DNA of 64,000 nt from Arcanobacterium urinimassiliense. GTDB lineage: Bacteria; Actinomycetota; Actinomycetes; Actinomycetales; Actinomycetaceae. The stretch lies in assembly GCF_900119495.1 (NCBI RefSeq), contig NZ_LT632435.1:1503205-1567204 (forward strand), read 5' to 3'. The notes beneath the pieces were generated by a model. That model had not been told where the DNA came from, ran no database searches, and saw only the letters and a program-made list of their open reading frames with translations. The position numbers and the translations under genes are program-made. Shown in pieces: positions 34,787 to 50,129 of this stretch (positions are counted from its first letter, which is position 1; each line of letters starts with the position of its first letter).

Positions 34787-36661
34787 TTAGTTTTTATCGC
34801 CTTCTTCGTCCACGATTTCGGCATCGACTACGTCATCTTCTCCTGCTTGCGCATTCTGCGCCGCTTCGCTCCAGCCATCTTGGCCAGCTTCTGCTTGCGC
34901 CGCTTGCGCTTGGGCATAGAGAGCCTGCCCAATTTGCTGCGCCTTCTGATTCATCTCTTCTTGCGCAGCTTTAATGGCTTCAACATCGTCGCCTTCCAGC
35001 GCTTTCTTCAGTTTCGCCGCTGCTTCGCTCACTTCACTGCTCACAGCTTCATCGAGCTTGTCTTTATTGTCTGCCAACAATTTCTCGATGCTGTACACCT
35101 GCTGCTCAGCAGCATTGCGTAATTCAGTTTCTTCCTTACGCTTCTCATCTTCCGCAGCGTGCTCTTCTGCTTCCTTCACCATCCGGTCGATATCTTCTTT
35201 CGAAAGTGCCGATCCGCCGGTGATAGTCACAGACTGCTCCTTGCCCGTACCCAAATCCTTTGCAGATACGTGCACAATGCCGTTGGCGTCAATATCGAAA
35301 GTAACTTCAATCTGCGGTACTCCGCGCGGTGCCGGTGCAATTCCCGAAAGTTCGAAAGTGCCGAGCAACTTATTATCGCGCGCAAAAGAACGCTCACCCT
35401 GGTACACCTGAATGAGTACCGAAGGCTGATTATCAGCTGCCGTCGAGAATAGCTCACTCCGCTTCGTGGGGATAGCAGTATTCCGCTCAATTAGCTTGGT
35501 GAGAATACCACCGTTAGTTTCAATTCCGAGCGAAAGCGGGGTGACGTCGATCAAGAGTACGTCATTGCGATCGCCGGTAATTACTCCAGCCTGCAGAGCA
35601 GCTCCTACTGCTACAACTTCGTCCGGATTTACTCCCTTATTAGGCTCTTTACCGCCCGTCAGTTCCTTAACCACTTCGGTAACTGCCGGCATCCGGGTGG
35701 AGCCTCCTACCATTACCACATGGTCAATTTCGGAAAGCTTAATATCAGCATCTTTTATTACATTCTGGAAAGGTACCTTGGTGCGCTCCAGTAAATCTTT
35801 CGTCATATCTTCGAACTTGGCCCGGCTCAACTTCTCATCGAGATGAATCGGCCCATTCTCACTCATCGAGAGATACTGCAGAGTGATATTTGTGGTCGTA
35901 GCAGAAGAGAGCTCTTTCTTAGCTTGTTCTGCTGCTTCCTTTAAACGCTGTAGAGCGATCTTATCCTTTGAAAGATCCACACCGTCTTTATTCTTCACTT
36001 GGGTAATCAGCCAATCTACGATTCGTTGATCCCAATCATCGCCGCCGAGTTTATTATCGCCCGAAGTGGCGCGCACCTGAATAGTGGAGAATCCATCGTC
36101 ATCTTTTCCGACTTCCAGTAAAGACACGTCAAAAGTGCCACCACCCAAATCGAATACCAAGATGAGTTCATCTTCCTTACCTTTTTCCAAACCATAAGCG
36201 AGCGCTGCCGCCGTCGGTTCGTTCACAATGCGCTGCACATTCAATCCAGCAATCTGCCCGGCATCCTTCGTGGCCTGCCGCTGAGCATCATTGAAGTAGG
36301 CTGGCACAGTAATTACTGCGTCCGTCACTTTTTCACCTAAATAGGCCTCGGCGTCTTTCTTTAATTTCTGCAAAATAAAAGCCGAGATTTGCTGCGGAGT
36401 GTAATCCTTGCCGTCAATTTCAATCTTCCAGTTCGGATCGCCCATATGCCGCTTTACCGAAGATACCGTCCGATCCACATTGGTGACGGCCTGTCGCTTA
36501 GCGATTTCTCCTACTAAAATTTCACCACTCTTAGAAAATCCCACTACCGAGGGAGTGGTGCGCTGCCCTTCCGCATTGGCAATTACCGTGGGTTCGCCGC
36601 CTTCGAGGACGGAGACCACAGAATTCGTAGTTCCTAAATCAATTCCTACTGCCCGAGTCAT
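34787..36661 (-). CDS. dnaK: Chaperone DnaK (Hsp70)
   Basis: 624 residues. It starts [18 protein letters not shown] and has the phosphate-2 motif [15 protein letters not shown] (about residues 170-184), the hinge [11 protein letters not shown] and a typical C-terminus ([12 protein letters not shown]). The frame is open to 36727, but the ATG at 36661 has AAAGGAGAAG upstream and matches the family start. First gene of the heat-shock operon; a HAIR-like site lies 116 bases upstream. Confidence 0.98.
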
Positions 36662-36776
36662 TTCTTCTCCTTTACTAGCCGGCGAAGCGCTTACTCGCGA
36701 TTCTCCGCTATACTTCTTAACTTTCACTTCAAGTCTGCCTTATCAATTGAACTTATGTCCAATCGGTACATCATTT

Positions 36777-36797
36777 CTTGAGTCCAATAAGCTCAAC
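36777..36797. promoter_or_regulatory. HspR operator (HAIR) upstream of dnaK
   Basis: CTTGAGT-N7-GCTCAAC: the left arm is perfect and the right arm differs from ACTCAAG at its two end bases. It sits 116-136 bases before the dnaK start codon, in a 357-base gap with no other gene. Confidence 0.8.
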
Positions 36798-37006
36798 TCT
36801 TAAGCGAGAAATTTTATTCCCACATCTTGCAAATGCTGCTTTTTATTTCCCTGCCCCCTTTCCAGCACCAATAAAATTGCAGGAAAAAATCCCAGTTCAG
36901 CGGGTTATTTTTTCAGTTACCGCTTTTGATTTTTCTAAAAAGTGATAAAGGTCATAGCTTAATTTTGCAGGCTGAGTAAATTGCCTTGCTCGCCCACCCT
37001 ATATGC

Positions 37007-37012
37007 CATAAT
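37007..37012 (+). promoter_or_regulatory. -10-like box (CATAAT) of the glucokinase gene
   Basis: CATAAT ends seven bases before the ATG at 37019 and there is no ribosome-binding site, so the message may be leaderless. Confidence 0.35.
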
Positions 37013-37018
37013 GAAGCT

Positions 37019-37966
37019 ATGAGCTTGAGTATCGGAGTAGATATCGGCGGCACAAAGATAGCCGCCGGCGTAGTAGACGAAGCGGGCACGATTCTCGCAC
37101 GCCGCCGGCGCCCGAGTCCGGCAGATGATTCCAACGCTGCCCTCCGGATTACTACCGAAATAGTGCAGGAATTAGTTGCAGAGTTCCCGGTGGCCACGAT
37201 TGGCATCGGTGTGCCCGGATTCGTAGATCCTAGCCAGAAAAAAATCATTTTTGGCCCTAATATCGACTGGGACGGTGCCGATATCGGCGGGCAAGTAGCC
37301 ACCGCCACCGGCTTAGCTTGCTATTTAGAGAATGATGCCAACGCCGCTGCTTGGGGGGAATATAAATTTGGCGCCGCTAGCTCCTATCACTCTCCTATTA
37401 CAGTAACTATCGGTACCGGAATTGGGGGCGGCATTATTATTGACGGTAAACTCCTGCGCGGCGCCAGCGGGTTTGCCGGAGAAATCGGACATATGGAAAT
37501 AGTGCCCGACGGATTACCGTGCGGATGCGGGCAAAAAGGTTGCTGGGAAGTATATGGCTCTGGCAATGCGCTCACTGCCACGGCGCGCAAATTAGCGGCG
37601 AGCTACCCCGCACGCGCAGCGCGCCTACTGGAACTCGCCGGTGGAAAAGTGGAAGCAATTAGCGGATTACTAATCACCGAAGCCGCACAGCAAGGAGATA
37701 GCGCCGCGCAAACTGCCTTTAGCGAAACTGGAAAATGGATTGGAAAAGGACTCGCCAACTTAGCCGCAATTTTCGATCCGGACGCTTTTGTACTCTCAGG
37801 TGGGGTTTGTGAAGCCAAAGATTTACTCCTTGCACCCGTGCAGAGCACTTTCACCGCAAATCTGACTATGGCGGCACACCGCCCCCAGCCGGATTTAGTG
37901 ATTGCCCAGCTAGGAAACGAAGCCGGACTAATCGGAGCAGCTGATCTTGCTAGGTGCCATCCCTAG
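37019..37966 (+). CDS. glk: ROK-family glucokinase
   Basis: Phosphorylates glucose for glycolysis. 315 residues from the ATG at 37019 (the frame opens at 36986). It starts SLSIGVDIGGTKIAAGVV (ATP site) and contains ENDANAAAWGEY (catalytic Asp), TIGTGIGGGIIIDG, and the ROK zinc motif CGCGQKGCWE (about residues 164-173). No helix-turn-helix is present, so it is a kinase and not a repressor. Other ROK sugar kinases are possible, but this length and zinc pattern favour glucokinase. It is the last chromosomal gene before the composite insertion. Confidence 0.88.
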   Translation: MSLSIGVDIGGTKIAAGVVDEAGTILARRRRPSPADDSNAALRITTEIVQELVAEFPVATIGIGVPGFVDPSQKKIIFGPNIDWDGADIGGQVATATGLACYLENDANAAAWGEYKFGAASSYHSPITVTIGTGIGGGIIIDGKLLRGASGFAGEIGHMEIVPDGLPCGCGQKGCWEVYGSGNALTATARKLAASYPARAARLLELAGGKVEAISGLLITEAAQQGDSAAQTAFSETGKWIGKGLANLAAIFDPDAFVLSGGVCEAKDLLLAPVQSTFTANLTMAAHRPQPDLVIAQLGNEAGLIGAADLARCHP

Positions 37967-38028
37967 ATAAAACTTCCCGAATGCTGCCTCAAGCGCGAAC
38001 TAGTAAAACTAGCGGGGGCTACCGGTTT

Positions 38029-38056
38029 TGAACTAGCCCCTGAAAGTTGGACTGGT
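38029..38056 (+). repeat. Solitary IS3-type terminal repeat
   Basis: Matches the left end of the complete IS (45582-45608) at about 22 of 27 positions, including the core CCCCTGAA and GTTGGACT. No IS coding sequence adjoins it; the nucleotidase remnant begins ten bases further in. Confidence 0.7.
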
Positions 38057-38065
38057 TTAATTCTA

Positions 38066-38408
38066 GGCGGTTAGGGCTTCAAGGCCGTAGTTGAATTCGT
38101 GGTTACCAGCACCCACCGCATCGTATTTCAAGTAGTTGAACACACTAGCCATCAGGTCAACAGTGCTATCTGTCCGGTTCGCGTGGTACACCATTTCGAT
38201 TCATGAGCCCTGCGCAGCGTCGCCGTTGTCTAGAAGCAGCACGGCGTTCTTACCTTTTTCTTCACGAACGTTCTGGATTGCCGTTGAGGGGTGATCCATA
38301 CCGCGAACATTTTGGGGTTTGGAAGAGCCAAAGGGCTGCCCGGTGAAGTAGTCGTGGTCCACTAGGGTGCCATAAATGAAGGTTTTGGTTTTCAAAACAA
38401 AACAGGCA
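38066..38408 (-). pseudogene. Remnant of a 5'-nucleotidase / metallophosphatase gene
   Basis: The minus-strand translation keeps the order of a UshA/CpdB-type N-terminus: GTLVDHDYFTGQPFG, VLLLDNGDAAQGS, then YLKYDAVGAGNHEFNYGLEA. An in-frame TGA at 38201-38203 interrupts it directly after the NGD motif, and the frame ends within the IS-like terminus (TAG at 38063-38065). The first metal-binding motif, normally DVHGTL, reads FIYGTL, so Asp and His are both lost. The C-terminal half, the signal peptide and the promoter are missing. A dead fragment left by rearrangement. Confidence 0.8.
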
Positions 38409-38564
38409 AGGTTACTTTTGTACTTTAACTTCACTTGAGATGCAGGTCTTACAAATTTGCGCTCGTACATATCGCGGATTTGGCCGGGCGGAGCAAACAA
38501 CGTCGTTGTGGTGCCTCACCGAAATTTCGTTCAGCACTGTTCGGACTATAAGAGAAATTGGCGA

Positions 38565-38596
38565 CGGGGGTGAGACCGTTTAAGGTCTCACCCCCG
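38565..38596 (-). terminator. Hairpin downstream of the surface-protein gene
   Basis: A perfect 13-base stem (38565-38577 with 38584-38596) with a 6-base loop, 33 bases after the stop. On the minus strand the following sequence is CGCCAATTTC, a poor T-run, so termination may be partial or factor-assisted. Confidence 0.65.
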
Positions 38597-38629
38597 TACT
38601 GTTATGCCGGTGTTTCGTCGGCTAGGCGA

Positions 38630-41600
38630 TTAGTTCTCCTCGCCTTCTCGACGGCGTCGCACGAGCGCCAAGCCAAGGCCTGCTACGCCCATTGCGGCTG
38701 CGATACCAACGAGTCCTGCTACCTGCGCGCCGGTGCGTGCAAGCTTAGGCTTCTTGACTCCCGGCTCGGTGGTCATATCGCCAGCGGCAGGCTTCTCAAC
38801 GGTGACCGTCACGCGATCAATCTCGTTGCCGTTCTTGTCCTTGACGATAACTACGATCTTGTCACCAGGCTTAGCGTTGTCGTCGATGTCAACAACGAGG
38901 TTGCCGTCGCCATCGATTTTTGCCTTGCCGGGGCCGTCGGTGTCGACCGTCGTGCCGTCCTCAACAGGGCCGCCATCGTTCGGGATTACGACCTTGCCAC
39001 CCGGTTCGCCAGAGCCATCCTTCCAGTCTGGCGTCTTGGTGTCAGGTTCGCCAACCGTGACAGTGACGTCAACGTTGTCCTTGGTGCCATCGGGGTAGGT
39101 CACTACAACCGGAACCTTGATCTTGTCACCAGGCTTAGCATCCCCAGGAATAGTCACCTTGATGGAACCATCCTCGTTAACGGTCACGCCGTCAGGCGTG
39201 CCCTCACCAGGAGTGAACTTGGTGTCCGCCGGAGGCGTTACCTTGTTGCCATCGCGGTCCTTGAAGGTCGGTTTGTCGATCGTAACATCCTCACCAGGCT
39301 TACCGGTGCCATCCTCGTACTCAGGCTCGTACTTCTCGTTGTCCTTGATTTCAGGAACGTTGCAGACTTTGTTCTGCATGGTCGTGTACGTCCAAGTGGT
39401 CTTCACCCCTTGGGGGAAGGTGAAGCCCACAGCAGGGCTGGCTTCGACCTTGACGGTCTGACCGTACTCATAGACGTACTTGCCTTTAGCGTCAGGCTGC
39501 AGCTCCACGCCACCAACGGTGACCTTGTATACAACACCCTCGGTCTTCTTGACGGTGACGAACGGAGGCATCTTACAGTTTGCCGGGTCGTCTGCAGATG
39601 CGCCCAGAGACGGGTTGTACTCAGTCGGCTCACTCGGCGTTACCGGAGTTGCGTCCTTCTCAGTCACGGTAATCGTGACAGTCACGTTGTCCTTGGTGCC
39701 ATCGGGGTAGGTCACTACAACCGGAACCTTGATCTTGTCACCAGGCTTAGCATCCCCAGGAATCTTCACCTTGATCTCACCAGTGTTCTTATCAATGGTC
39801 ACACCACCAGGCGTTTTATCACCAGGAGTGAACGTGGTGCCAGTCGGAGGCGTGGTGTCCTTACCGTCCTTGTCCTTAAACGACGGGGCAGGAACCGTCA
39901 CCTCAGTACCAGGCTTACCCGAACCATCGGTGTACTCCGGCTGGAAGTGATCATTCGCGTTCGGAACCTTCGGATTAGAGTCATCACCATCGGGGATGCC
40001 GTCATTATCGTCATCAGGATCAGTCACATCAGGCTTGCCATCACCATCAGTATCCAGCTTAAAGTTAGCCTTCACCTCATCAGTGCTGCCATCCTTATAC
40101 GTCACCTTAACAGGAACATCAAACACCTCAACAGTGTCCTTATTCAGCTTCGACTTATCCGGGAACGTAACCGTAATCACACCAGTGTTCTCATCGATCT
40201 TAACTACATAGCCCTCAGGAGCCTTGTAATCACCAATCGAGAACTTCGAACCCTCAGGAACATCTACACCCTTACCATCCTTACCAGTAAAGGAAGGAGC
40301 AGACTTCGTCTCCTTACCAGGAACAACCAACTTACCCTCATACTTAGGCTCGTAAACGCCGTTATCCTTATCGGTCACCGTGACCGTGACAGTCACGTTG
40401 TCCTTGGTGCCATCGGGGTAGGTCACTACAACCGGAACCTTGATCTTGTCACCAGGCTTAGCATCCCCAGGAATCTTCACCTTGATCTCACCAGTGTTCT
40501 TATCAATGGTCACACCACCAGGCGTTTTATCACCAGGAGTGAACGTGGTGCCAGTCGGAGGCGTGGTGTCCTTACCGTCCTTGTCCTTAAACGACGGGGC
40601 AGGAACCGTCACCTCAGTACCAGGCTTACCCGAACCATCGGTGTACTCCGGCTGGAAGTGATCATTCGCGTTCGGAACCTTCGGATTAGAGTCATCACCA
40701 TCGGGGATGCCGTCATTATCGTCATCAGGATCAGTCACATCAGGCTTGCCATCACCATCAGTATCCAGCTTAAAGTTAGCCTTCACCTCATCAGTGCTGC
40801 CATCCTTATACGTCACCTTAACAGGAACATCAAACACCTCAACAGTGTCCTTATTCAGCTTCGACTTATCCGGGAACGTAACCGTAATCACACCAGTGTT
40901 CTCATCGATCTTAACTACATAGCCCTCAGGAGCCTTGTAATCACCAATCGAGAACTTCGAACCCTCAGGAACATCTACACCCTTACCATCCTTACCAGTA
41001 AAGGAAGGAGCAGACTTCGTCTCCTTACCAGGAACAACCAACTTACCCTCATACTTAGGCTCGTAAACGCCGTTATCCTTATCGGTCACCGTGACCGTGA
41101 CAGTCACGTTGTCCTTGGTGCCATCGGGGTAGGTCACTACAACCGGAACCTTGATCTTGTCACCAGGCTTAGCATCCCCAGGAATCTTCACCTTGATCTC
41201 ACCAGTGTTCTTATCAATGGTCACACCACCAGGCGTTTTATCACCAGGAGTGAACGTGGTGCCAGTCGGAGGCGTGGTGTCCTTACCGTCCTTGTCCTTA
41301 AACGACGGGGCAGGAACCGTCACCTCAGTACCAGGCTTACCCGAACCATCGGTGTACTCCGGCTGGAAGTGATCATTCGCGTTCGGAACCTTCGGATTAG
41401 AGTCATCACCATCGGGGATGCCGTCATTATCGTCATCAGGATCAGTCACATCAGGCTTGCCATCACCATCAGTATCCAGCTTAAAGTTAGCCTTCACCTC
41501 ATCAGTGCTGCCATCCTTATACGTCACCTTAACAGGAACATCAAACACCTCAACAGTGTCCTTATTCAGCTTCGACTTATCCGGGAACGTAACCGTAATC

Positions 41601-44600
41601 ACACCAGTGTTCTCATCGATCTTAACTACATAGCCCTCAGGAGCCTTGTAATCACCAATCGAGAACTTCGAACCCTCAGGAACATCTACACCCTTACCAT
41701 CCTTACCAGTAAAGGAAGGAGCAGACTTCGTCTCCTTACCAGGAACAACCAACTTACCCTCATACTTAGGCTCGTAAACGCCGTTATCCTTATCGGTCAC
41801 CGTGACCGTGACAGTCACGTTGTCCTTGGTGCCATCGGGGTAGGTCACTACAACCGGAACCTTGATCTTGTCACCAGGCTTAGCATCCCCAGGAATCTTC
41901 ACCTTGATCTCACCAGTGTTCTTATCAATGGTCACACCACCAGGCGTTTTATCACCAGGAGTGAACGTGGTGCCAGTCGGAGGCGTGGTGTCCTTACCGT
42001 CCTTGTCCTTAAACGACGGGGCAGGAACCGTCACCTCAGTACCAGGCTTACCCGAACCATCGGTGTACTCCGGCTGGAAGTGATCATTCGCGTTCGGAAC
42101 CTTCGGATTAGAGTCATCACCATCGGGGATGCCGTCATTATCGTCATCAGGATCAGTCACATCAGGCTTGCCATCACCATCAGTATCCAGCTTAAAGTTA
42201 GCCTTCACCTCATCAGTGCTGCCATCCTTATACGTCACCTTAACAGGAACATCAAACACCTCAACAGTGTCCTTATTCAGCTTCGACTTATCCGGGAACG
42301 TAACCGTAATCACACCAGTGTTCTCATCGATCTTAACTACATAGCCCTCAGGAGCCTTGTAATCACCAATCGAGAACTTCGAACCCTCAGGAACATCTAC
42401 ACCCTTACCATCCTTACCAGTAAAGGAAGGAGCAGACTTCGTCTCCTTACCAGGAACAACCAACTTACCCTCATACTTAGGCTCGTAAACGCCGTTATCC
42501 TTATCGGTCACCGTGACCGTGACAGTCACGTTGTCCTTGGTGCCATCGGGGTAGGTCACTACAACCGGAACCTTGATCTTGTCACCAGGCTTAGCATCCC
42601 CAGGAATCTTCACCTTGATCTCACCAGTGTTCTTATCAATGGTCACACCACCAGGCGTTTTATCACCAGGAGTGAACGTGGTGCCAGTCGGAGGCGTGGT
42701 GTCCTTACCGTCCTTGTCCTTAAACGACGGGGCAGGAACCGTCACCTCAGTACCAGGCTTACCCGAACCATCGGTGTACTCCGGCTGGAAGTGATCATTC
42801 GCGTTCGGAACCTTCGGATTAGAGTCATCACCATCGGGGATGCCGTCATTATCGTCATCAGGATCAGTCACATCAGGCTTGCCATCACCATCAGTATCCA
42901 GCTTAAAGTTAGCCTTCACCTCATCAGTGCTGCCATCCTTATACGTCACCTTAACAGGAACATCAAACACCTCAACAGTGTCCTTATTCAGCTTCGACTT
43001 ATCCGGGAACGTAACCGTAATCACACCAGTGTTCTCATCGATCTTAACTACATAGCCCTCAGGAGCCTTGTAATCACCAATCGAGAACTTCGAACCCTCA
43101 GGAACATCTACACCCTTACCATCCTTACCAGTAAAGGAAGGAGCAGACTTCGTCTCCTTACCAGGAACAACCAACTTACCCTCATACTTAGGCTCAAAGA
43201 TCGTTGCATCGCGTTCCGCTACCTTGAACGGGGCATCGGCATGGGCAACAACGCGGCCTTGGGTCTTCGGCTGGCCGTCGTCACCCTTCACCGGATCGCC
43301 GTTCTCGTCGAGAACCGGGACCTGCAGGTCCTCGTTGCGCATCATAACTGGGAACTTGAACGTCTTACCAGTCTGGTCAGCATTCGGAGTGAAGGTCACA
43401 ACACCGGTTGCGGAATCAACCGAAACCTGATCCTTAGTGACGCCCTCTGGCAGTGTGCCAAGTTCAAACTTTGCCTTTTCAGGCTTGGTTTCTTTACCGT
43501 CGGTAGCCGGATTGTCGAACTTTGGCTTGGAGGAAGTAGCCTCTCCAGACTTCGCCTGGACCTCGTCGTACTCAAGGTATTCACGCGCCACAGCGAAGGC
43601 ATCCAGAGCCAGAACCAGGTCGTTCGCTGGATCTGAATCACCATCAGTAAGCTTCAGGCGAGCAGTGTACGTATCACCAGTTTGGGCTTCTGCCGGAACG
43701 GTGAACGGACAGCTTGGGATCTTGGTTGCGGCATCAGCTTTAGCGGTGTCACAGGTCTTGACGACTTTGCTGTTCTTGTCTACCCACTGGATGTAGTAGG
43801 TCAGATCCTGGGAAATCGGCAGACCGGAGGTATCCGTCTGAACCGTATCGCCGACCGTGGCCCAGTTATCAGTAGTGTTCTTATCCACTACATCGAACTT
43901 CAAGGCTTGCGGCGCAAGCGCGATGTTCCAGCCCGTGTAGCCATCAGTGGTGTTACCAATGAGGGCGCCGTCGCCACCGAAGAGCTGTGCGTTACCGCCA
44001 GCGTTCAAATCAGCGCCGAAGCCCGGGCCCGCCCACTGGCCAAGAGCCCACGGATACAACGCACCGATATTGTCCGGTAGCGGTTTACCATCCTTACCGT
44101 AGACGCTGAGGTAGCTCCAGTGCATATTGACGTGCTTGGAGTCAAGTGCGCCGTTAGTCCAACGGCCTTCGTTCCACGAACCAGCCAGCTTGTGCCACTT
44201 GTCAGCCGGCACGATACCCCGGCTAGAGTGGTCGTTACCGTAGATGCCCTTCCAGAACAGCTGGAACGTACCATCAGCGCCAGTAGTGGTCGTGACCGTC
44301 TCGGCAATCCAGCCTTCTGGATCCGCAGCTACCTGCTCATTAATCCAGCGCTGCAAGCCCTCTTCATCAGTAGGAGTCCAATCAGACCCACGCAGAGTCT
44401 TACCCGCAAAGTTATCCTTTGCGTACTGTTCAATCTTGGTCACGGCCTCGTCGTTGAGGTAAGAGCCAACCACTTTCAAACCAGCGGCAGCAACGTCCTT
44501 ACCTCCAAAGGCACTGACAGTGTTGTGGTTTTTCGCGCCCTGCAACACATCAAGGTTCCAAAATGCCCGACCAGCATAGGTGCCTTGGTTACTGGAGTTT

Positions 44601-45283
44601 CCAACACTCTCTACCCACTTGTTTTCCGGAAGGTGCTGTGGCAGTTTGTCCTTCTGCGCGTACTGGATGGTCACACCCGAGACTTTGTTGTCACCCCACT
44701 GGCCGTCACCCTGGGTATTGGGAGTGGTGTTTGCGCCAATACCAGGGAAGATACCAGCCGCCGGCTGGTGCACCAGACGATACTTATCCGTCAAATCATT
44801 CGGTAGCTCCGTCCACATACGGATCTTCTCACGGCGTTGATCACGCCGACCGGCAGGGTCACCTGTCGTAAGGCCAACACTGGCATCCGCAGCGAACGTG
44901 CGGGTCACGCCGGCAGCATCAGTGTACGGCCCCATCTTGATGGTGAAGTTACCGTTAGCATCGCTCTCGGTGTAGTACACCGGGGACGAATGCTCCGTGT
45001 TGACGCCCTCATACCACTGGGCGTATACCTTCACACCCTTCCCCATTGGCCTACCGGCATCCTGAACGTTCTTGAAACCAACGGCCGCCTTCACAATCTC
45101 CTTGACAGAGCCAGAGATCGTGCCTTTTTCGCTCGCCTTACCAGGAGAATAGATGGCCTGATCCTGCGCATTAGCAGCCGGAACGAGCGGAGATCTGGGC
45201 ATTACCGCGAAGGCAATGGCCAGAGAGAAAACAGCAGCTAAAATCGCCGTACCTCGACGACGGATCGCGTTTTGCTTTACCAT
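38630..45283 (-). CDS. Giant repeat surface protein with LARTG wall anchor (Rib/YPDG-type adhesin)
   Basis: 2217 residues. Layout: signal peptide (1-40, ending PAANAQ); a unique N-terminal region with carbohydrate- or collagen-binding-like beta domains (about 41-690); five tandem 237-residue units; a divergent sixth partial unit; and the C-terminal sorting signal LARTG, hydrophobic helix, RRRREGEEN. Each unit holds two Rib/YPDG-like beta domains (one ends VTYPDGTKDNVTVTVTVT) and a calcium-binding thrombospondin-3-like stretch reading DTDGDGKPDVTDPDDDNDG. Such proteins mediate adhesion; LAxTG anchors are used by class E sortases in actinobacteria. AAGGAAG precedes the ATG. The base composition is more GC-rich than the neighbours and the gene sits beside IS sequences, suggesting transfer. 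No sortase gene is in the window. Confidence 0.93.
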   Translation of the reverse strand: MVKQNAIRRRGTAILAAVFSLAIAFAVMPRSPLVPAANAQDQAIYSPGKASEKGTISGSVKEIVKAAVGFKNVQDAGRPMGKGVKVYAQWYEGVNTEHSSPVYYTESDANGNFTIKMGPYTDAAGVTRTFAADASVGLTTGDPAGRRDQRREKIRMWTELPNDLTDKYRLVHQPAAGIFPGIGANTTPNTQGDGQWGDNKVSGVTIQYAQKDKLPQHLPENKWVESVGNSSNQGTYAGRAFWNLDVLQGAKNHNTVSAFGGKDVAAAGLKVVGSYLNDEAVTKIEQYAKDNFAGKTLRGSDWTPTDEEGLQRWINEQVAADPEGWIAETVTTTTGADGTFQLFWKGIYGNDHSSRGIVPADKWHKLAGSWNEGRWTNGALDSKHVNMHWSYLSVYGKDGKPLPDNIGALYPWALGQWAGPGFGADLNAGGNAQLFGGDGALIGNTTDGYTGWNIALAPQALKFDVVDKNTTDNWATVGDTVQTDTSGLPISQDLTYYIQWVDKNSKVVKTCDTAKADAATKIPSCPFTVPAEAQTGDTYTARLKLTDGDSDPANDLVLALDAFAVAREYLEYDEVQAKSGEATSSKPKFDNPATDGKETKPEKAKFELGTLPEGVTKDQVSVDSATGVVTFTPNADQTGKTFKFPVMMRNEDLQVPVLDENGDPVKGDDGQPKTQGRVVAHADAPFKVAERDATIFEPKYEGKLVVPGKETKSAPSFTGKDGKGVDVPEGSKFSIGDYKAPEGYVVKIDENTGVITVTFPDKSKLNKDTVEVFDVPVKVTYKDGSTDEVKANFKLDTDGDGKPDVTDPDDDNDGIPDGDDSNPKVPNANDHFQPEYTDGSGKPGTEVTVPAPSFKDKDGKDTTPPTGTTFTPGDKTPGGVTIDKNTGEIKVKIPGDAKPGDKIKVPVVVTYPDGTKDNVTVTVTVTDKDNGVYEPKYEGKLVVPGKETKSAPSFTGKDGKGVDVPEGSKFSIGDYKAPEGYVVKIDENTGVITVTFPDKSKLNKDTVEVFDVPVKVTYKDGSTDEVKANFKLDTDGDGKPDVTDPDDDNDGIPDGDDSNPKVPNANDHFQPEYTDGSGKPGTEVTVPAPSFKDKDGKDTTPPTGTTFTPGDKTPGGVTIDKNTGEIKVKIPGDAKPGDKIKVPVVVTYPDGTKDNVTVTVTVTDKDNGVYEPKYEGKLVVPGKETKSAPSFTGKDGKGVDVPEGSKFSIGDYKAPEGYVVKIDENTGVITVTFPDKSKLNKDTVEVFDVPVKVTYKDGSTDEVKANFKLDTDGDGKPDVTDPDDDNDGIPDGDDSNPKVPNANDHFQPEYTDGSGKPGTEVTVPAPSFKDKDGKDTTPPTGTTFTPGDKTPGGVTIDKNTGEIKVKIPGDAKPGDKIKVPVVVTYPDGTKDNVTVTVTVTDKDNGVYEPKYEGKLVVPGKETKSAPSFTGKDGKGVDVPEGSKFSIGDYKAPEGYVVKIDENTGVITVTFPDKSKLNKDTVEVFDVPVKVTYKDGSTDEVKANFKLDTDGDGKPDVTDPDDDNDGIPDGDDSNPKVPNANDHFQPEYTDGSGKPGTEVTVPAPSFKDKDGKDTTPPTGTTFTPGDKTPGGVTIDKNTGEIKVKIPGDAKPGDKIKVPVVVTYPDGTKDNVTVTVTVTDKDNGVYEPKYEGKLVVPGKETKSAPSFTGKDGKGVDVPEGSKFSIGDYKAPEGYVVKIDENTGVITVTFPDKSKLNKDTVEVFDVPVKVTYKDGSTDEVKANFKLDTDGDGKPDVTDPDDDNDGIPDGDDSNPKVPNANDHFQPEYTDGSGKPGTEVTVPAPSFKDKDGKDTTPPTGTTFTPGDKTPGGVTIDKNTGEIKVKIPGDAKPGDKIKVPVVVTYPDGTKDNVTVTITVTEKDATPVTPSEPTEYNPSLGASADDPANCKMPPFVTVKKTEGVVYKVTVGGVELQPDAKGKYVYEYGQTVKVEASPAVGFTFPQGVKTTWTYTTMQNKVCNVPEIKDNEKYEPEYEDGTGKPGEDVTIDKPTFKDRDGNKVTPPADTKFTPGEGTPDGVTVNEDGSIKVTIPGDAKPGDKIKVPVVVTYPDGTKDNVDVTVTVGEPDTKTPDWKDGSGEPGGKVVIPNDGGPVEDGTTVDTDGPGKAKIDGDGNLVVDIDDNAKPGDKIVVIVKDKNGNEIDRVTVTVEKPAAGDMTTEPGVKKPKLARTGAQVAGLVGIAAAMGVAGLGLALVRRRREGEEN
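39641..43195 (-). repeat. Five tandem 711-bp repeats inside the surface-protein gene
   Basis: Identical sequence features recur exactly every 711 bases (for example at 39729, 40440, 41151, 41862 and 42573), encoding 237 residues per unit. Copies look nearly base-identical, and the last unit in gene order ends with a slightly changed sequence (VTITVTEKD). Such arrays change copy number by recombination and can be miscounted in assemblies. Confidence 0.95.
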
Positions 45284-45452
45284 ATTATCGAGTCTTCCTT
45301 CCGAGAAGATACTTTGGACGTAGAGAGAGTCCGAAGGCTCTACCTGAATACCCGCATCTGTTGATGGTGGAGTTAGCTATGCCGACCTTACGACCGGCAA
45401 GAATCGCATAGAGCAACTATCAGTGCTATAGCAACCCTTAATAATGGCAATC

Positions 45453-45472
45453 AAGTAGGACCAAAGTAGGAC
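45453..45472. promoter_or_regulatory. 11-bp-spaced direct repeat upstream of the surface-protein gene
   Basis: AAGTAGGAC occurs at 45453-45461 and 45464-45472, one helical turn apart, 170-190 bases before the start codon. It could be a paired regulator site. The rest of the 298-base gap to the IS is AT-rich with no gene. Confidence 0.45.
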
Positions 45473-45565
45473 TGAACTACTATAGACTACAATATTTTTC
45501 TTGTAATCACAACGCCCTATATGAAAACAGCTTTTGGTACTTTTCCCAATAACGGCAAGGATTCT

Positions 45566-45580
45566 CCCCCCTCCCCCCCC
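45566..45580. repeat. Poly-C tract (C6-T-C8) between the surface-protein gene and the IS
   Basis: A homopolymer-like run immediately outside the left IS end and about 290 bases upstream of the surface-protein start. Such tracts are prone to slippage, but the distance makes direct on/off control uncertain. Confidence 0.7.
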
Positions 45581-45623
45581 TTGAAGTTTCCCCTGAATGT
45601 TGGACTAGTTAAATGGTAGTCCT

Positions 45624-46270
45624 TTAGGCTGCGAGGGCATGATTCCGATATTCGTTCGGGGTCATGCCCTCGAGTCGTTCCTGGATGCGTTTGTTGTTGT
45701 ACCAGTGGATGTATGCCTTGATCTGGTTGACCAGGTGCTCAGTGGATGTGAAGGTGTTGTTGTAGAACATCTCTGATTTGAGGTGGCCGAAGAAGTTCTC
45801 GGCTACGGCGTTGTCGTAACAGTTTGCCTTGCGAGACATTGACTGGACTGCGTGGGAACGGCTGAGTGATCGAACAAGTCGATGATTGGTGAGAGATAGA
45901 TCTTGGACGATCCGAGACGGAACTCGGTAACGTCAGAGACCCATTTTTGGTTCGGGCTAGTAGCAGTGAAGTCGCGGGCTAACACGTTTGGGGCAATGGT
46001 CGATAGTATGCCTCGGTAAGAGTTATAGCGTTTCTTCTGACGGACCAGGCAGGTCAGTCCTTCACGCTTCATAAGCTTGGCGACGAGTTTACGAGAGACC
46101 ACCAGGCCCTGGCGGTGTAGGGCGAGTCGGATCCTACGGTGACCATACCGACCGCCCGAAGCTTCAAAAATTGTTCTGATCTTGGCTCGAAGATCAGCAT
46201 GTTTATCTGGCTGTCCTAGGCGGGCTTGATGGTAGTAGAACGTTGATCTGGCCAATCGCGCTACCCGCAA
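45624..46270 (-). pseudogene. IS3-type transposase OrfB, internally deleted
   Basis: The N-terminal part (ARSTFYYHQARLG, then GRYGHRRIRLALHRQG and WVSDVTEFRLGSS with the first catalytic Asp) is in one frame, ending near 45803. The C-terminal part (NCYDNAVAENFFGHLKSE with the catalytic Glu, ending in HWYNNKRIQERL) is in another. The first Asp and the Glu are only about 46 residues apart, against about 95 in intact IS3 enzymes. The middle Asp region is therefore missing and the frame shifts near 45845-45875. Not functional. Confidence 0.88.
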
Positions 46271-46323
46271 AAGAACATCGAGATCATGGTGGGACTTGAG
46301 TGTAACGATTACTCGAGCTCGGT

Positions 46324-46803
46324 CTATTGCTCGTTGTTCATCAAGTCCCTTAATGCTTTTAGGTAGGCGTTCTCCGCTTCTAAGTCCCTGATCCGTTGTT
46401 CAAGTTCCTTAGTTTGAGATAACACCCGGGGACCGGTCTTAGGTCGCCTGCCCTTAGGCTTAGGGCGCAAGCCGTCTTCGCCTTGGTCGCGATAGATCCG
46501 CACCCAGCTCGTCACCACGTTGACAGAAGCCAATCCCAAGTCCTGCGCGATACTCATCCGGGTCTAGCCGGCCAGAAAGCGTTGAACAGCATCACGTTTG
46601 ACTTCAAAGGTAAAAACTCGCTTATGTGACTTATTCACAAGAACAAGCCTGCCATGAATACGCCACCGATTATAGAAACGATCGCACGGCTTGAAACTCA
46701 AGCCAAGGCAAGAAGCAGCCGCTGCGGCACCACACCCCTGCTCAAACAAAGCAACTAAACGCGTCTGATCAGACTCAGTCAATGAAGATAAAGAAGAAAC
46801 CAT
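46324..46803 (-). pseudogene. IS3-type transposase OrfA interrupted by an amber codon
   Basis: Starts MVSSLSSLTESDQTRLVALF and continues through two helix-turn-helix units and a leucine-zipper-like end (ELEQRIRDLEAENAYLKALR). A TAG at 46564-46566 falls within the expected LAGETRMSIAQDLG, where a Glu codon GAG probably became TAG. Translation would stop after the first half. Confidence 0.85.
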
Positions 46804-46808
46804 GAAAA

Positions 46809-46858
46809 TGTCCCCCGGAAAAAGAAACTGAATAATCCAGTCCAACTTCCGGGGGACA
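46809..46858 (-). promoter_or_regulatory. IS-end hairpin covering the orfA ribosome-binding site
   Basis: TGTCCCCCGGAA (46809-46820) and TTCCGGGGGACA (46847-46858) are perfect inverted complements. The GGGGGA before the orfA start lies in one arm. Transcripts entering from outside would therefore hide the start, a known way for IS elements to avoid activation by read-through. Confidence 0.6.
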
Positions 46859-46920
46859 CTTCATTTCGGCAGTCCCCGCGTTCTTAGTTTTAATTATGCT
46901 TCTTTGCTTCGATTCTGTTT

Positions 46921-47349
46921 CTAATCTTCATTCGGATCCAAAGCAGCATCTTTTGCCTCTGGATGTACTGTACCTGCCACATGATCTGGCCCAGCATAAA
47001 TCGTATACAGCTGCATAGGTACATCACCGATATTGGTGACGTTGTGCCACATATCAGCGGGAACGAAAATAGCGTCGTCATCTTCTACTTCTTTACGGAA
47101 GCTGAGGTCATCTTCCGCCGGCCCCATTTCACACAGACCCTTGCCGGCTTCGATACGTAGGAACTGATCAATTCCCTCGTGAACCTCTAAGCCAATTTCG
47201 CCGCCAACCGGAATACTCATTACCGTCATCTGCAGTTTTTCACCCGTCCACATGGTGGTGCGGAAATTCTGGTTATCTAAGGTCTCTTTTTCGATATTTA
47301 CTACCCACGGCTGCTTGCCCTTGTCGTCGTACTGATGCGCGTAGTCCAT
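46921..47349 (-). CDS. Cupin-domain protein
   Basis: 142 residues forming one double-stranded beta-helix. GGEIGLEVHEGIDQFLRIEA (about residues 49-68) and FVPADMWHNVTNIGDVPMQL (about 96-115) are the two cupin motifs. Compared with the canonical form, the first metal His is at LEVHEG and the second at MWHNV. No enzymatic activity can be assigned. GGAGGTAGGGGA precedes the ATG. It lies just outside the right end of the composite segment and is probably native. Confidence 0.82.
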   Translation of the reverse strand: MDYAHQYDDKGKQPWVVNIEKETLDNQNFRTTMWTGEKLQMTVMSIPVGGEIGLEVHEGIDQFLRIEAGKGLCEMGPAEDDLSFRKEVEDDDAIFVPADMWHNVTNIGDVPMQLYTIYAGPDHVAGTVHPEAKDAALDPNED

Positions 47350-47397
47350 TCCCCTACCTCCTCACCACTCTACGAGCGGCAGTAGTTTTGTACCTTG

Positions 47398-48723
47398 TTA
47401 CAATCTCAGTCTACTATTTTTTTCATGGCGCTGGCCGTCAAAAATCCAGAATAACGCTGCTAGCAGAAGAATTCCGCCAGATATCCAGTATGCAAGGGTG
47501 AAGCCCGAAATGTCGATGAGGAATCCGGCGACTAGCGGGCCAATTATTTGCCCAAAATCGCCTGCCATCTGGAAAAAGGAGACTACGCTGTTGCCGGAGC
47601 GGTCTCCAATTATATCGGCCACTGCTCCTTGCTGAGAAGGCTGTACGCATCCAGAACCGAAGCCACCCCAAAAACTCAGTAGCAGCAGTACCCAGTCGGC
47701 AGTAAAAATCCCCATTCCGAGCGTAAAAAATCCGGAAAGCAGCAGGCCGAAGATGACGGGGTGCCGCCGGCCGGATAAATCCGACCATTTACCGGCCACC
47801 CAGAGCGCAAGCGCATTCCCAAAGGCAAAGGTAGTCAAGAGGCCGCCGGCAAGCCACGGTGCGGCCGTGGGGAGGGAAAGTGCCAGCAACGGAATTACGG
47901 AAACGCGCACCCCCATATTCGTCCACCCTTGGGAGAAGGCAGTCAATAAGGTAATGCGAAAACGCCGCAGCTGGAGAGCTTCTCGCACCGTGATTACGGG
48001 GCGAGCAGAAAGATTGGCCGCTTTTTCCGCTTTCTCCGCTTTTTCCGCTTTCTCCAATTTTTCGGGCGGAAGTGGCGAATTAGCGGGGAGAAATACGTCC
48101 GGACCAATAGCTATTTTCACTATCAACCACGCAATAATTAAAAAGCAGCCATAAATAAGAAAAGGCCACCGATAGCCCAAACCAGAGAGTAAGGCTCCTA
48201 CAGCTGGGCCAGCGATATTTCCAATTAAGAAACCTGCTCCGTAGGCGGCAGAAGCTCGCCCGCGCATAGTAGGAGGAGCGAGCTTAAAGATCATCGACAT
48301 CGCCGCTACGGAAAAAGTAATGGAGCCGATGCCGCCGGCCGCCCGGAAAATCAATAACTGCAGATAGCTCTGCGCAAAAGCCGAAGCAAAAGAAGAAATC
48401 ATTACGATGGCGATGCCAAACAGGTACATCCGGCGCTCCCCGAATTTGGTGGAAAGCCAGCCCGAAGCAGGTGCGAAGCTCAAACGCAGGAGCGCGAAAG
48501 CAGAAACTACAAAAGTAGCGGCCAGGTTAGTGACCGAAAAACTCTTGGCATATTGCGGCAATACCGGAGCCACTATTCCGTAACCTAAAGCTATCGCCAC
48601 TGCCGCCGCCACCAATACCCAAATTGCGCGGGGAAGTCGCTCTTCTTTTACACCAGCATCCATACTATTTGGTCTATCAAAGTTCTCTGGAAAATCCATC
48701 TTTAATAAATCAACCTCACACAC
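47398..48723 (-). CDS. MFS transporter (multidrug-efflux type)
   Basis: 441 residues and twelve hydrophobic segments, with GWLSTKFGERRMYLFG (motif A-like, about residues 90-105) after the second helix. Start choice is uncertain: the GTG at 48723 has AGAGGTGAAA before it, while internal ATG codons at 48699 and 48663 would shorten the N-terminus. The central loop carries a repeated Glu-Lys-Ala stretch (about residues 230-245). Substrate unknown; drug or metabolite export is typical. It is divergent from the DUF4921 gene. Confidence 0.85.
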   Translation of the reverse strand: MCEVDLLKMDFPENFDRPNSMDAGVKEERLPRAIWVLVAAAVAIALGYGIVAPVLPQYAKSFSVTNLAATFVVSAFALLRLSFAPASGWLSTKFGERRMYLFGIAIVMISSFASAFAQSYLQLLIFRAAGGIGSITFSVAAMSMIFKLAPPTMRGRASAAYGAGFLIGNIAGPAVGALLSGLGYRWPFLIYGCFLIIAWLIVKIAIGPDVFLPANSPLPPEKLEKAEKAEKAEKAANLSARPVITVREALQLRRFRITLLTAFSQGWTNMGVRVSVIPLLALSLPTAAPWLAGGLLTTFAFGNALALWVAGKWSDLSGRRHPVIFGLLLSGFFTLGMGIFTADWVLLLLSFWGGFGSGCVQPSQQGAVADIIGDRSGNSVVSFFQMAGDFGQIIGPLVAGFLIDISGFTLAYWISGGILLLAALFWIFDGQRHEKNSRLRL

Positions 48724-48806
48724 ACTTTCACCTCTGGCTCAGCAGTTATATATAATTAGAGTGCCCAGCCAAATGGGCAAAATTTCTTTAATAGTAGAGT
48801 GAGAAT

Positions 48807-50129
48807 ATGAATTTCCCGATACGCGAGCCTTTAACGAGAATGGCCGACGGCACCATCAAACAGTGGAACCCTTTTTCCGGTACTGAGGTCTGGACGGTAC
48901 CTGGCAGAGCTAACCGCCCTTTGGATATAAAACTTTCCGACCCCCATCCGCTAAATCCGAAAGAGCTCGGGCATCACTGTGCTTTTTGTACCCAGCGAAT
49001 TCTCGAAACTCCACCGGAGAAAGCGCGCCTCGTAAAGAAACGCGACGACGCCGTCATATATAAATCCACTAGCGTAGAGATGCTCACCCGCGAATGGGAA
49101 TTCCGCCGCGTGCCAAATCTTTTTGAGATAGTTTCTTTCGATTATTGGGAAAAAAATTATGGCTACCAGCTCTCTCCGGCAGCCCAGCACAATATGGATT
49201 CCTATATTGCCGACCCGGCCGGGCGCGCACATGTACTGAATGTATTGCGCGTTAAACTCGGGGCGCAATACAGCGAAGAAGCGTGGGAGCAGCTATCTGA
49301 TAGAGAAAAAATGCAGTACGCCCGCGCACTTTTTGGTTCCGGGCACGATTTAATCATCGCTCGCCGACACTTCGTAGACGGAGCAGAAAACGATAGTCAG
49401 TTGGCTTCTGCAGGCACACTCACCCCACAAGAGCACCTCTGGTATATTCGCCTCACTATCGATGCGATGAAAGATCTCTATGATGCAAATCGCTACGCTC
49501 GTTATATTCAGGTATTCCAAAATTGGTTAAAACCAGCGGGAGCCTCTTTTGACCACCTACACAAGCAATTAGTGGCTATTGACCAGCGCCCTATTAACGG
49601 GCAGATGGAGCTCAAGAAAGTCCGGCAAAACCCCAATCTCTACAATGAGGCAGCTGTAGACTACGCCGGCTACCACAATTTAGTGATTGCCGAGAATAAG
49701 CATGCAGTAGCTATTGCCGGATTTGGCCATCGCTACCCAACTTTGGAAGTGTGGTCGCGCTCTAGTCACTGCCAACCTTGGGAGCATAGCCGGGAAGAAA
49801 TTGCCGCTATGTCGGATTTGATTCACGCTATGCACGCTGCCACCGGCCCGCTCGTGCCCTGTAATGAGGAGTGGTATTGCAAGCCAATTGACGCCGATGT
49901 GAATATGCCCTGGCGAGTCTTGCTGAAATGGCGCGTATCTACTTTGGCCGGTTTCGAAGGGGGCACAAAAATTTACGTAAATACCATTGACCCCTGGCAT
50001 GTGCGCGATCGCGTAGTGCCGCGGCTATTGGAACTGCGCGCCGAAGGAAAAATTTCGCAGAGTATAAATATCTCTACCGAATGTAGCTGCCGCGTAAATT
50101 CCCTCCGGTACAACCCGGCTCTCCAATAG
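48807..50129 (+). CDS. DUF4921 family protein (GalT/HIT-superfamily-like)
   Basis: 440 residues. MNFPIREPLTRMADGTIKQW at the start and HHCAFCTQRILETPPEKARL (about residues 53-72, a zinc-like Cys pair) mark the DUF4921 family, seen mainly in Actinomycetota. ASFDHLHKQLVAIDQRP (about residues 249-265) resembles the GalT/HIT active-site His motif, and CSCRVNSLRYNP ends the protein. It probably acts on a nucleotide or sugar phosphate; the reaction is unknown. GAGTGAG precedes the ATG. Confidence 0.8.
   Translation: MNFPIREPLTRMADGTIKQWNPFSGTEVWTVPGRANRPLDIKLSDPHPLNPKELGHHCAFCTQRILETPPEKARLVKKRDDAVIYKSTSVEMLTREWEFRRVPNLFEIVSFDYWEKNYGYQLSPAAQHNMDSYIADPAGRAHVLNVLRVKLGAQYSEEAWEQLSDREKMQYARALFGSGHDLIIARRHFVDGAENDSQLASAGTLTPQEHLWYIRLTIDAMKDLYDANRYARYIQVFQNWLKPAGASFDHLHKQLVAIDQRPINGQMELKKVRQNPNLYNEAAVDYAGYHNLVIAENKHAVAIAGFGHRYPTLEVWSRSSHCQPWEHSREEIAAMSDLIHAMHAATGPLVPCNEEWYCKPIDADVNMPWRVLLKWRVSTLAGFEGGTKIYVNTIDPWHVRDRVVPRLLELRAEGKISQSINISTECSCRVNSLRYNPALQ

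Follow-up and report, generated by a model that had tools for sequence, protein, structure and literature searches.

The analysed window is a stretch of 64,000 nucleotides from Arcanobacterium urinimassiliense, namely C2:1503205-1567204 of a genome (G000 below) that comprises 1.68 Mb on 2 contigs. Between a glk-type sugar kinase gene and a cupin gene it carries an 8.8-kb segment, positions 38029-46863 of the window. This segment comprises the gene of a giant surface protein with Rib repeats (a putative adhesin), a fragment of a nucleotidase gene and a broken insertion sequence (IS) of the IS3 type (Table 1). An earlier note on this DNA had proposed that the whole segment, rather than the IS alone, moved into the gap between the two genes. 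Our comparison with other genomes supports this proposal: the segment is very probably a decayed composite transposon that moved as one unit into the loop of a terminator-like hairpin between glk and cupin.

Outer ends of the unit and its landing site

The stretches 38029-38059 and 46833-46863 at the borders of the segment (31 nt, 81% complementary) make up the longest inverted repeat within 36000-49000. The earlier description of two inverted IS3-type termini around the adhesin gene, the nucleotidase fragment and the broken IS thus holds, and the cargo is bounded by outward-facing ends of related IS, as expected of a composite transposon. We take these ends to resemble the IS150 group. The right terminus belongs to the broken IS, for which we use the name IS-B; the left one is a true terminus too, but only a 56-bp remnant of it is present, and judging by its sequence it comes from a different variant, named IS-C here. 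Two complete IS copies around the cargo were therefore not found, as the left side has only this end and the right IS is internally deleted.

The earlier note had named a chance match at 38029 as a case that would speak against its reading. The sequence identifies this end as a real IS end, since its 56 bp agree at 96% with the terminus of another IS elsewhere in this genome (C2:184436-184491); an IS of genome G113 is also 96% identical to the left end type. With up to 3 mismatches, the core end motif gave 7 matches in this genome against 2 for the reversed control. The general end motif, at the same tolerance, was present in 54 of the 213 genomes of the family used for comparison, and its reversed control gave 4 matches in total. 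The left end type is widespread among genomes: 44 stretches with its motif were found in named genomes, 38 of them from Corynebacterium or Rothia.

Members of the IS3 family produce target-site duplications (TSDs) of 3-4 bp. The TTT reported at both outer ends is indeed there and is read as a TSD of 3 bp, the size usual in this IS group, and the target turned out to be a terminator-like loop. When the flanks are joined with one TTT, they form a hairpin of -27.6 kcal/mol (z -4.36), and 0 of 200 dinucleotide shuffles were as good. Because leaving the unit out restores this hairpin, the unit appears to sit in its loop. The hairpin lies between the convergent glk and cupin genes and is placed like a bidirectional terminator.

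To score insertion points we used a simple measure devised for this analysis, the stem score, which is the best stem whose loop contains the insertion point; 3000 intergenic positions served as control, and top-1% means at or above their 99th percentile. The outer flanks of the unit score 30, a value reached by 0.8% of the controls. The inner IS alone (45582-46863) scores 8, which 88% of the controls reach. It has no TSD, in agreement with the earlier statement that no matching flank is seen there, and no target hairpin either.

Is such a landing site usual for these elements? The first list of IS copies had 28 rows, collected by the end motif with up to 6 mismatches; it contained the inner IS, two units, the elements of G077 and G071, and four others whose end motif is more distant (L071, L073, L075, L076). 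The set of 23 complete copies allowed up to 5 mismatches and excluded those four, while the inner IS and the units were scored separately; the G074 unit discussed below contributed both of its IS (L063 and L135) to the 23. In this set 15 of the 23 copies lay in top-1% hairpins and 16 had a TSD of at least 3 bp. As the hairpin idea arose from the first copies read, a fresh set was fetched afterwards (20 loci, two without a complete copy, leaving 18 copies). Here 13 of the 18 were in top-1% hairpins and 16 had a TSD of at least 3 bp. Among five paired ends from named genomes, three score at least 29 and a fourth scores 22; the fifth, a doubtful pair of 1960 bp, has a score of 9. L154, L159, L180 and L064 (the same as L181) are common to the set of 23 and these five pairs, so the sets overlap. 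In the fresh set several targets within one genus resemble each other. Hairpin targeting is a strong preference of the group, not a strict rule. The window unit behaves in the same IS1397-like way and the unit in G158 does not; the inner IS of the window fits neither the TSD nor the hairpin pattern.

Nine genus-mates were compared at the locus. The comparison with relatives that the earlier note proposed succeeded in part: glk and cupin are adjacent in three of the nine (G001, G003, G009), but an empty site with a single TTT could not be read in them, as they are too diverged. The best stems in these three gaps score 32, 31 and 47, next to 30 in the window; 2% of 300 random 217-bp stretches of these loci reach 30. 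In G004 the cupin gene is present, next to one that looks feoB-like by eye, and a search for glk at E 1e-60 gave nothing. In G005 to G008 neither gene was matched, with the same limit applied to glk.

Table 1. Features of the unit and of its immediate surroundings, in window positions
Feature	Position	Strand	Basis or remark
glk-type ROK sugar kinase, left neighbour outside the unit	36986..37966	+	Pfam ROK 2.9e-84
Left arm of split terminator-like hairpin	38012..38024	.	pairs with 46867-46879 when unit is removed
TTT, left copy of TSD	38026..38028	.	sequence; TSD test
Solo IS3-type outer end (IS-C variant), left terminus of unit	38029..38084	+	56 bp; 0 mismatches to core motif
Nucleotidase gene fragment	38072..38378	-	92% to G121:C3:1570848-1571154, inside 669-aa gene
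Stretch between nucleotidase fragment and adhesin hairpin	38379..38562	.	inside 98.6% block common to G158
Hairpin downstream of adhesin, carried with cargo	38563..38599	.	57/58 bases alike in G121 over 38563-38620
Rib/RibLong-repeat surface protein, putative adhesin, 2217 aa, open frame, LARTG-type C-terminus (by eye)	38630..45283	-	open reading frame
Five 711-bp near-identical repeats inside adhesin gene	39654..43208	-	
Adhesin upstream region, similar to G121	45284..45571	-	alignment 42803-45571, 79%
Broken IS3-type element (IS-B), right part of unit, outer end 46863	45582..46863	-	rve_2 and HTH_21 above Pfam cut-off, rve below
TTT, right copy of TSD	46864..46866	.	sequence; TSD test
Right arm of split terminator-like hairpin	46867..46879	.	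pairs with 38012-38024 when unit is removed
Cupin-domain protein, right neighbour outside the unit	46921..47349	-	Pfam Cupin_2 4.2e-11

The second copy in G158 and the donor-like locus in G121

Genomes G158 and G121 belong to other genera than the window; G112 and G113 are of the same genus as G121. In G158 we detected two blocks that match the window in the same order and orientation, one along 38029-38876 (98.6%, 12 differences in 848) and one along 45854-46864 (99.2%, 8 differences in 1010 compared). On the outside the alignments end at 38029 and at one chance shared T past 46863. Apart from a palindrome within the first block, the window between 36901 and 47500 has no other match at this locus. 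An unrelated IS (L089 5030-6298) has inserted between the blocks, and this copy has lost the left part of its right IS together with most of the adhesin. The flanks differ from those of the window and carry their own repeat, TAAG, on both sides, so a repeat surrounds the whole unit at two unrelated sites. The gene to the right of the G158 unit has matches in 9 of the 35 genomes in that genus, G158 being one of the nine. Its closest match outside G158, in G169, is 64% and does not align across the join, so no empty site could be read for this copy. Because the same two outer boundaries recur in another genus with other flanks, movement of the whole segment into the glk-cupin gap, and not of the IS alone, is supported by the sequences.

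This recurrence also bears on the idea that the right IS inserted alone beside a resident adhesin gene and that the end at 38029 was left by an older, unrelated IS. The origin of the two ends from different IS variants would suit such a history. Against it stand the inner IS, which lacks both TSD and target hairpin, and the adhesin itself, whose relatives within the genus are distant: the best match has 33% identity and none exceeds 39% over a part. For the same reason the other case that the earlier note had named, relatives that keep the adhesin in place and lack the IS, was not encountered. As both ends recur as a pair in G158, a lone insertion is largely refuted and we regard it as very improbable.

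The locus in G121 shows a gene order like that of the unit. There a protein of 1514 aa with a sortase-type C-terminus comes after the adhesin, and next to it a nucleotidase-like protein of 669 aa with LPKTG at its C-terminus; the sortase motifs were read by eye, and the nucleotidase models match below their cut-offs. Adhesin and nucleotidase are 5 kb apart, in the order seen in the window, and the nucleotidase fragment of the window is 92% identical in DNA to the G121 gene over 307 bp in the same relative orientation. The pieces that can be aligned with G121 (downstream hairpin, gene and upstream region) span 38563-45571 and end 10 bp before the right IS; the stretch 38379-38562 had no match in the G121 locus. 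A C-rich run at 45566-45580 directly adjoins the inner IS end. Since the cargo, the right IS end (in G112) and the left end type (in G113) all match there, the parts of the unit appear to trace to the genus of G121. The direction of transfer, presumably out of a G121-like genome, is what we infer, and the left end type is widespread.

Several observations count against a composite transposon. The TTT match alone carries little information, and the left side consists of the 56-bp end with no IS. In G158 the unit is not in a hairpin, its stem score of 10 being one that 68% of controls attain, and the repeat around it has 4 bp instead of the usual 3. Single copies of the IS group also occur outside top-1% hairpins, 8 of 23 in the first set and 5 of 18 in the fresh one. 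The pattern of the junction, an IS end joined to the nucleotidase, had 0 matches in the genome_contigs and viral_contigs sets, and the joined left end was not found beyond G158 among the 213 family genomes, so only two copies of the unit are known. An approximate search for the junction matched the IS end alone in plasmids (2 Corynebacterium records) and gave no match in phages. No same-species genome free of the unit was among those compared, and the relatives are too diverged for base-by-base alignment of the gap. Finally, in G002 the gap holds a surface protein of 3368 aa that is unrelated to the adhesin and has DUF11-type repeats (L018 4255-14361); it shows neither these IS ends nor long arms across its flanks. 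Judging from G002, the gap can be filled by another route as well, and surface-protein genes may be tolerated there.

The G002 protein would also be in keeping with arrival of the adhesin block by homologous recombination or within a larger island, the border IS ends being secondary insertions or recombination points; it is established that IS elements are common recombination substrates. Yet in two genera with unrelated flanks both blocks end at the outer IS termini, and the outer flanks combine a repeat of 3 bp with the kind of target hairpin seen in the IS group, neither of which the inner IS has. We consider this route improbable, although it is somewhat better placed than the lone insertion.

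Cargo, insertion sequences and possible mode of movement

The adhesin matches the Pfam domains RibLong (4.4e-240) and Rib (3e-56), and it also has YPDG and Rib/alpha repeats. Over the 300-bp stretches compared, its 711-bp repeats are 98-100% identical to each other. By the N-terminal 684 residues its best relatives are in G121 (81% of amino acids) and G085 (79%), from two other genera, and this region is matched in 35 of the 213 family genomes at E 1e-10. A second, diverged relative of the N-terminal region (31-35%) is encoded elsewhere in the same genome, at G000:C2:199718-201475.

At the left border the IS end and the nucleotidase fragment overlap by 13 bp (38072-38084). Since these 13 bp are common to both, the junction suggests a short-homology deletion.

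The right IS shows the usual organization of the IS3 family, a two-frame transposase with HTH and rve (DDE) core, in damaged form. It has 1282 bp against 1440 bp in its complete relative in G112, and an internal deletion near 45846-45854. Part of the catalytic region is lost, and the first frame has a premature stop, where the G158 copy is open. The rve match reaches 26.1 bits, below the Pfam cut-off of 32.6. The orfA of G158 matches an IS3 model at 2.7e-09 and 36.8 bits, the whole-protein cut-off being 160; the second transposase frame is cut off there by the other IS. With both frames broken in the window, a working transposase is absent from the unit. The outer end of the right IS has a 73-bp match of 98.6% in G112 (L098 3900-3972), where the remainder of the IS is unmatched. 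Its left part (45582-45848) is 72-79% identical to other copies and the rest is 99% identical to G158. A chimera of two IS was considered for this element and set aside, as an internal deletion of one IS suffices and G158 is without the left part.

Because its right IS is broken, the window copy is probably immobile by itself. A possible source of transposase in trans is the IS-C copy of the same genome (G000:C2:183053-184491; L021 5054-6492), which could in principle act on the unit: its two frames look open, as do those of the G112 IS, and it sits in a hairpin loop with an ATT repeat. A complete IS of this type is present on a mobilizable Corynebacterium plasmid, and some such carrier may have taken the unit between cells.

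If the segment is a decayed composite transposon, then we can ask: How did it come to its present form? Two related IS3-type elements would have bracketed a chromosomal block in a G121-like donor, made up of the nucleotidase, probably the second surface protein, and the Rib-repeat adhesin. Later deletions would have taken away the second surface protein and the greater part of both the left IS and the nucleotidase. An IS3-type transposase could then have used the two remaining outward ends together and so moved the whole block. By a copy-out/paste-in route, joining of the outer ends would give a circle of the whole unit, which would be pasted into the hairpin loop with duplication of TTT. The unit is now probably fixed, unless IS-C elsewhere in the genome acts on it in trans.

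Within the composite-transposon reading, the chances seem evenly divided as to whether the unit travelled with two complete IS or in another way, either moved in trans by IS-C or as a unit of one IS with a surrogate end. Both copies have the same truncated left end and the same join of nucleotidase and adhesin, for which transposition from a solo end gives the simpler order of events, and the IS-C of this genome has two open frames and an outer end 96% identical to the left end of the unit. However, the order of decay and movement is not readable from two copies, and an IS-C transposase might not bind the right end, since this belongs to the IS-B type.

Related systems and other cargo between the same ends

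Several known systems may be compared with a composite transposon of this kind. ISApl1 is a member of the IS30 family. Like the window unit, the ISApl1-mcr-1 composite occurs in reduced forms too, with a single IS or without any, in which the cargo has become fixed (PMC5821093). It differs in cargo, hosts and IS family. In Burkholderia thailandensis an IS3-family composite of about 210 kb, the 'megacircle', has an IS2-like element at each end, and the mechanism given for the IS3 family is copy-out/paste-in through a circle (PMC6350997). There too cargo between two IS3-family elements moved as one unit. That composite inserted beside an existing IS copy, whereas the window unit is 8.8 kb long, has one end of 56 bp, lies in a terminator-like loop with a 3-bp repeat and occurs in two genera (PMC6350997). 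IS1397 and ISKpn1, also IS3-family elements, insert in REP palindromes and so resemble the present group in targeting palindromic extragenic sequences. Their target is a repeated host sequence; here it is a stem-loop shape shared across genera, and the unit carries a cargo gene (PMC1525189).

A narrow full-text literature search, without most subscription journals, found no report of IS3-type composites aimed at terminator loops, nor of the combination of a composite, terminator-loop targeting and a giant surface protein crossing genera. The unit offers a testable route by which giant cell-wall-anchored surface proteins, which likely set host and tissue contacts, may pass between actinobacterial genera. 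The loop of a terminator between convergent genes would be a site where insertion costs little, and the preference for it suggests how a transposon can insert and leave genes intact, and where further units of this kind might be sought.

The earlier note had advised a search for the same ends around other cargo, and this yielded two further candidates. The first, in G074 (L135 3745-8802; 5.1 kb), has two identical 1444-bp inverted IS around the gene of a 664-aa protein whose C-terminus is of the LAQTG type. When joined, the outer flanks of this unit give an almost perfect palindrome with a score of 35. Among the four relatives compared, the joined flanks align across the join in G069, G072 and G073, where the hairpin is undisturbed, and on the left side only in G075. 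No 3-bp TSD was seen around this unit. The cargo resembles the neighbouring gene and, by this likeness, could have come by local duplication. The second, in G071 (L133 145-3648; 3.5 kb), is bounded on either side by a decayed IS (72-78% to IS-C), with an ATG repeat and a stem score of 22, which 2.4% of controls reach. Its cargo is a membrane protein and a secreted protein; the latter looks trypsin-like by eye and had no match in NCBIfam. In five relatives the rfbB-like side aligns and the left flank does not, so that this unit stays a candidate.

We suggest only tentatively, as something that may prove otherwise, that recurrent IS3-type composite transposons in Actinomycetaceae and their neighbours aim at the terminator loops of convergent genes and shuttle secreted or sortase-anchored surface proteins between genera. 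A 2.9-kb element in G077 was also considered as a composite and rejected, being an IS interrupted by another transposase-like gene.

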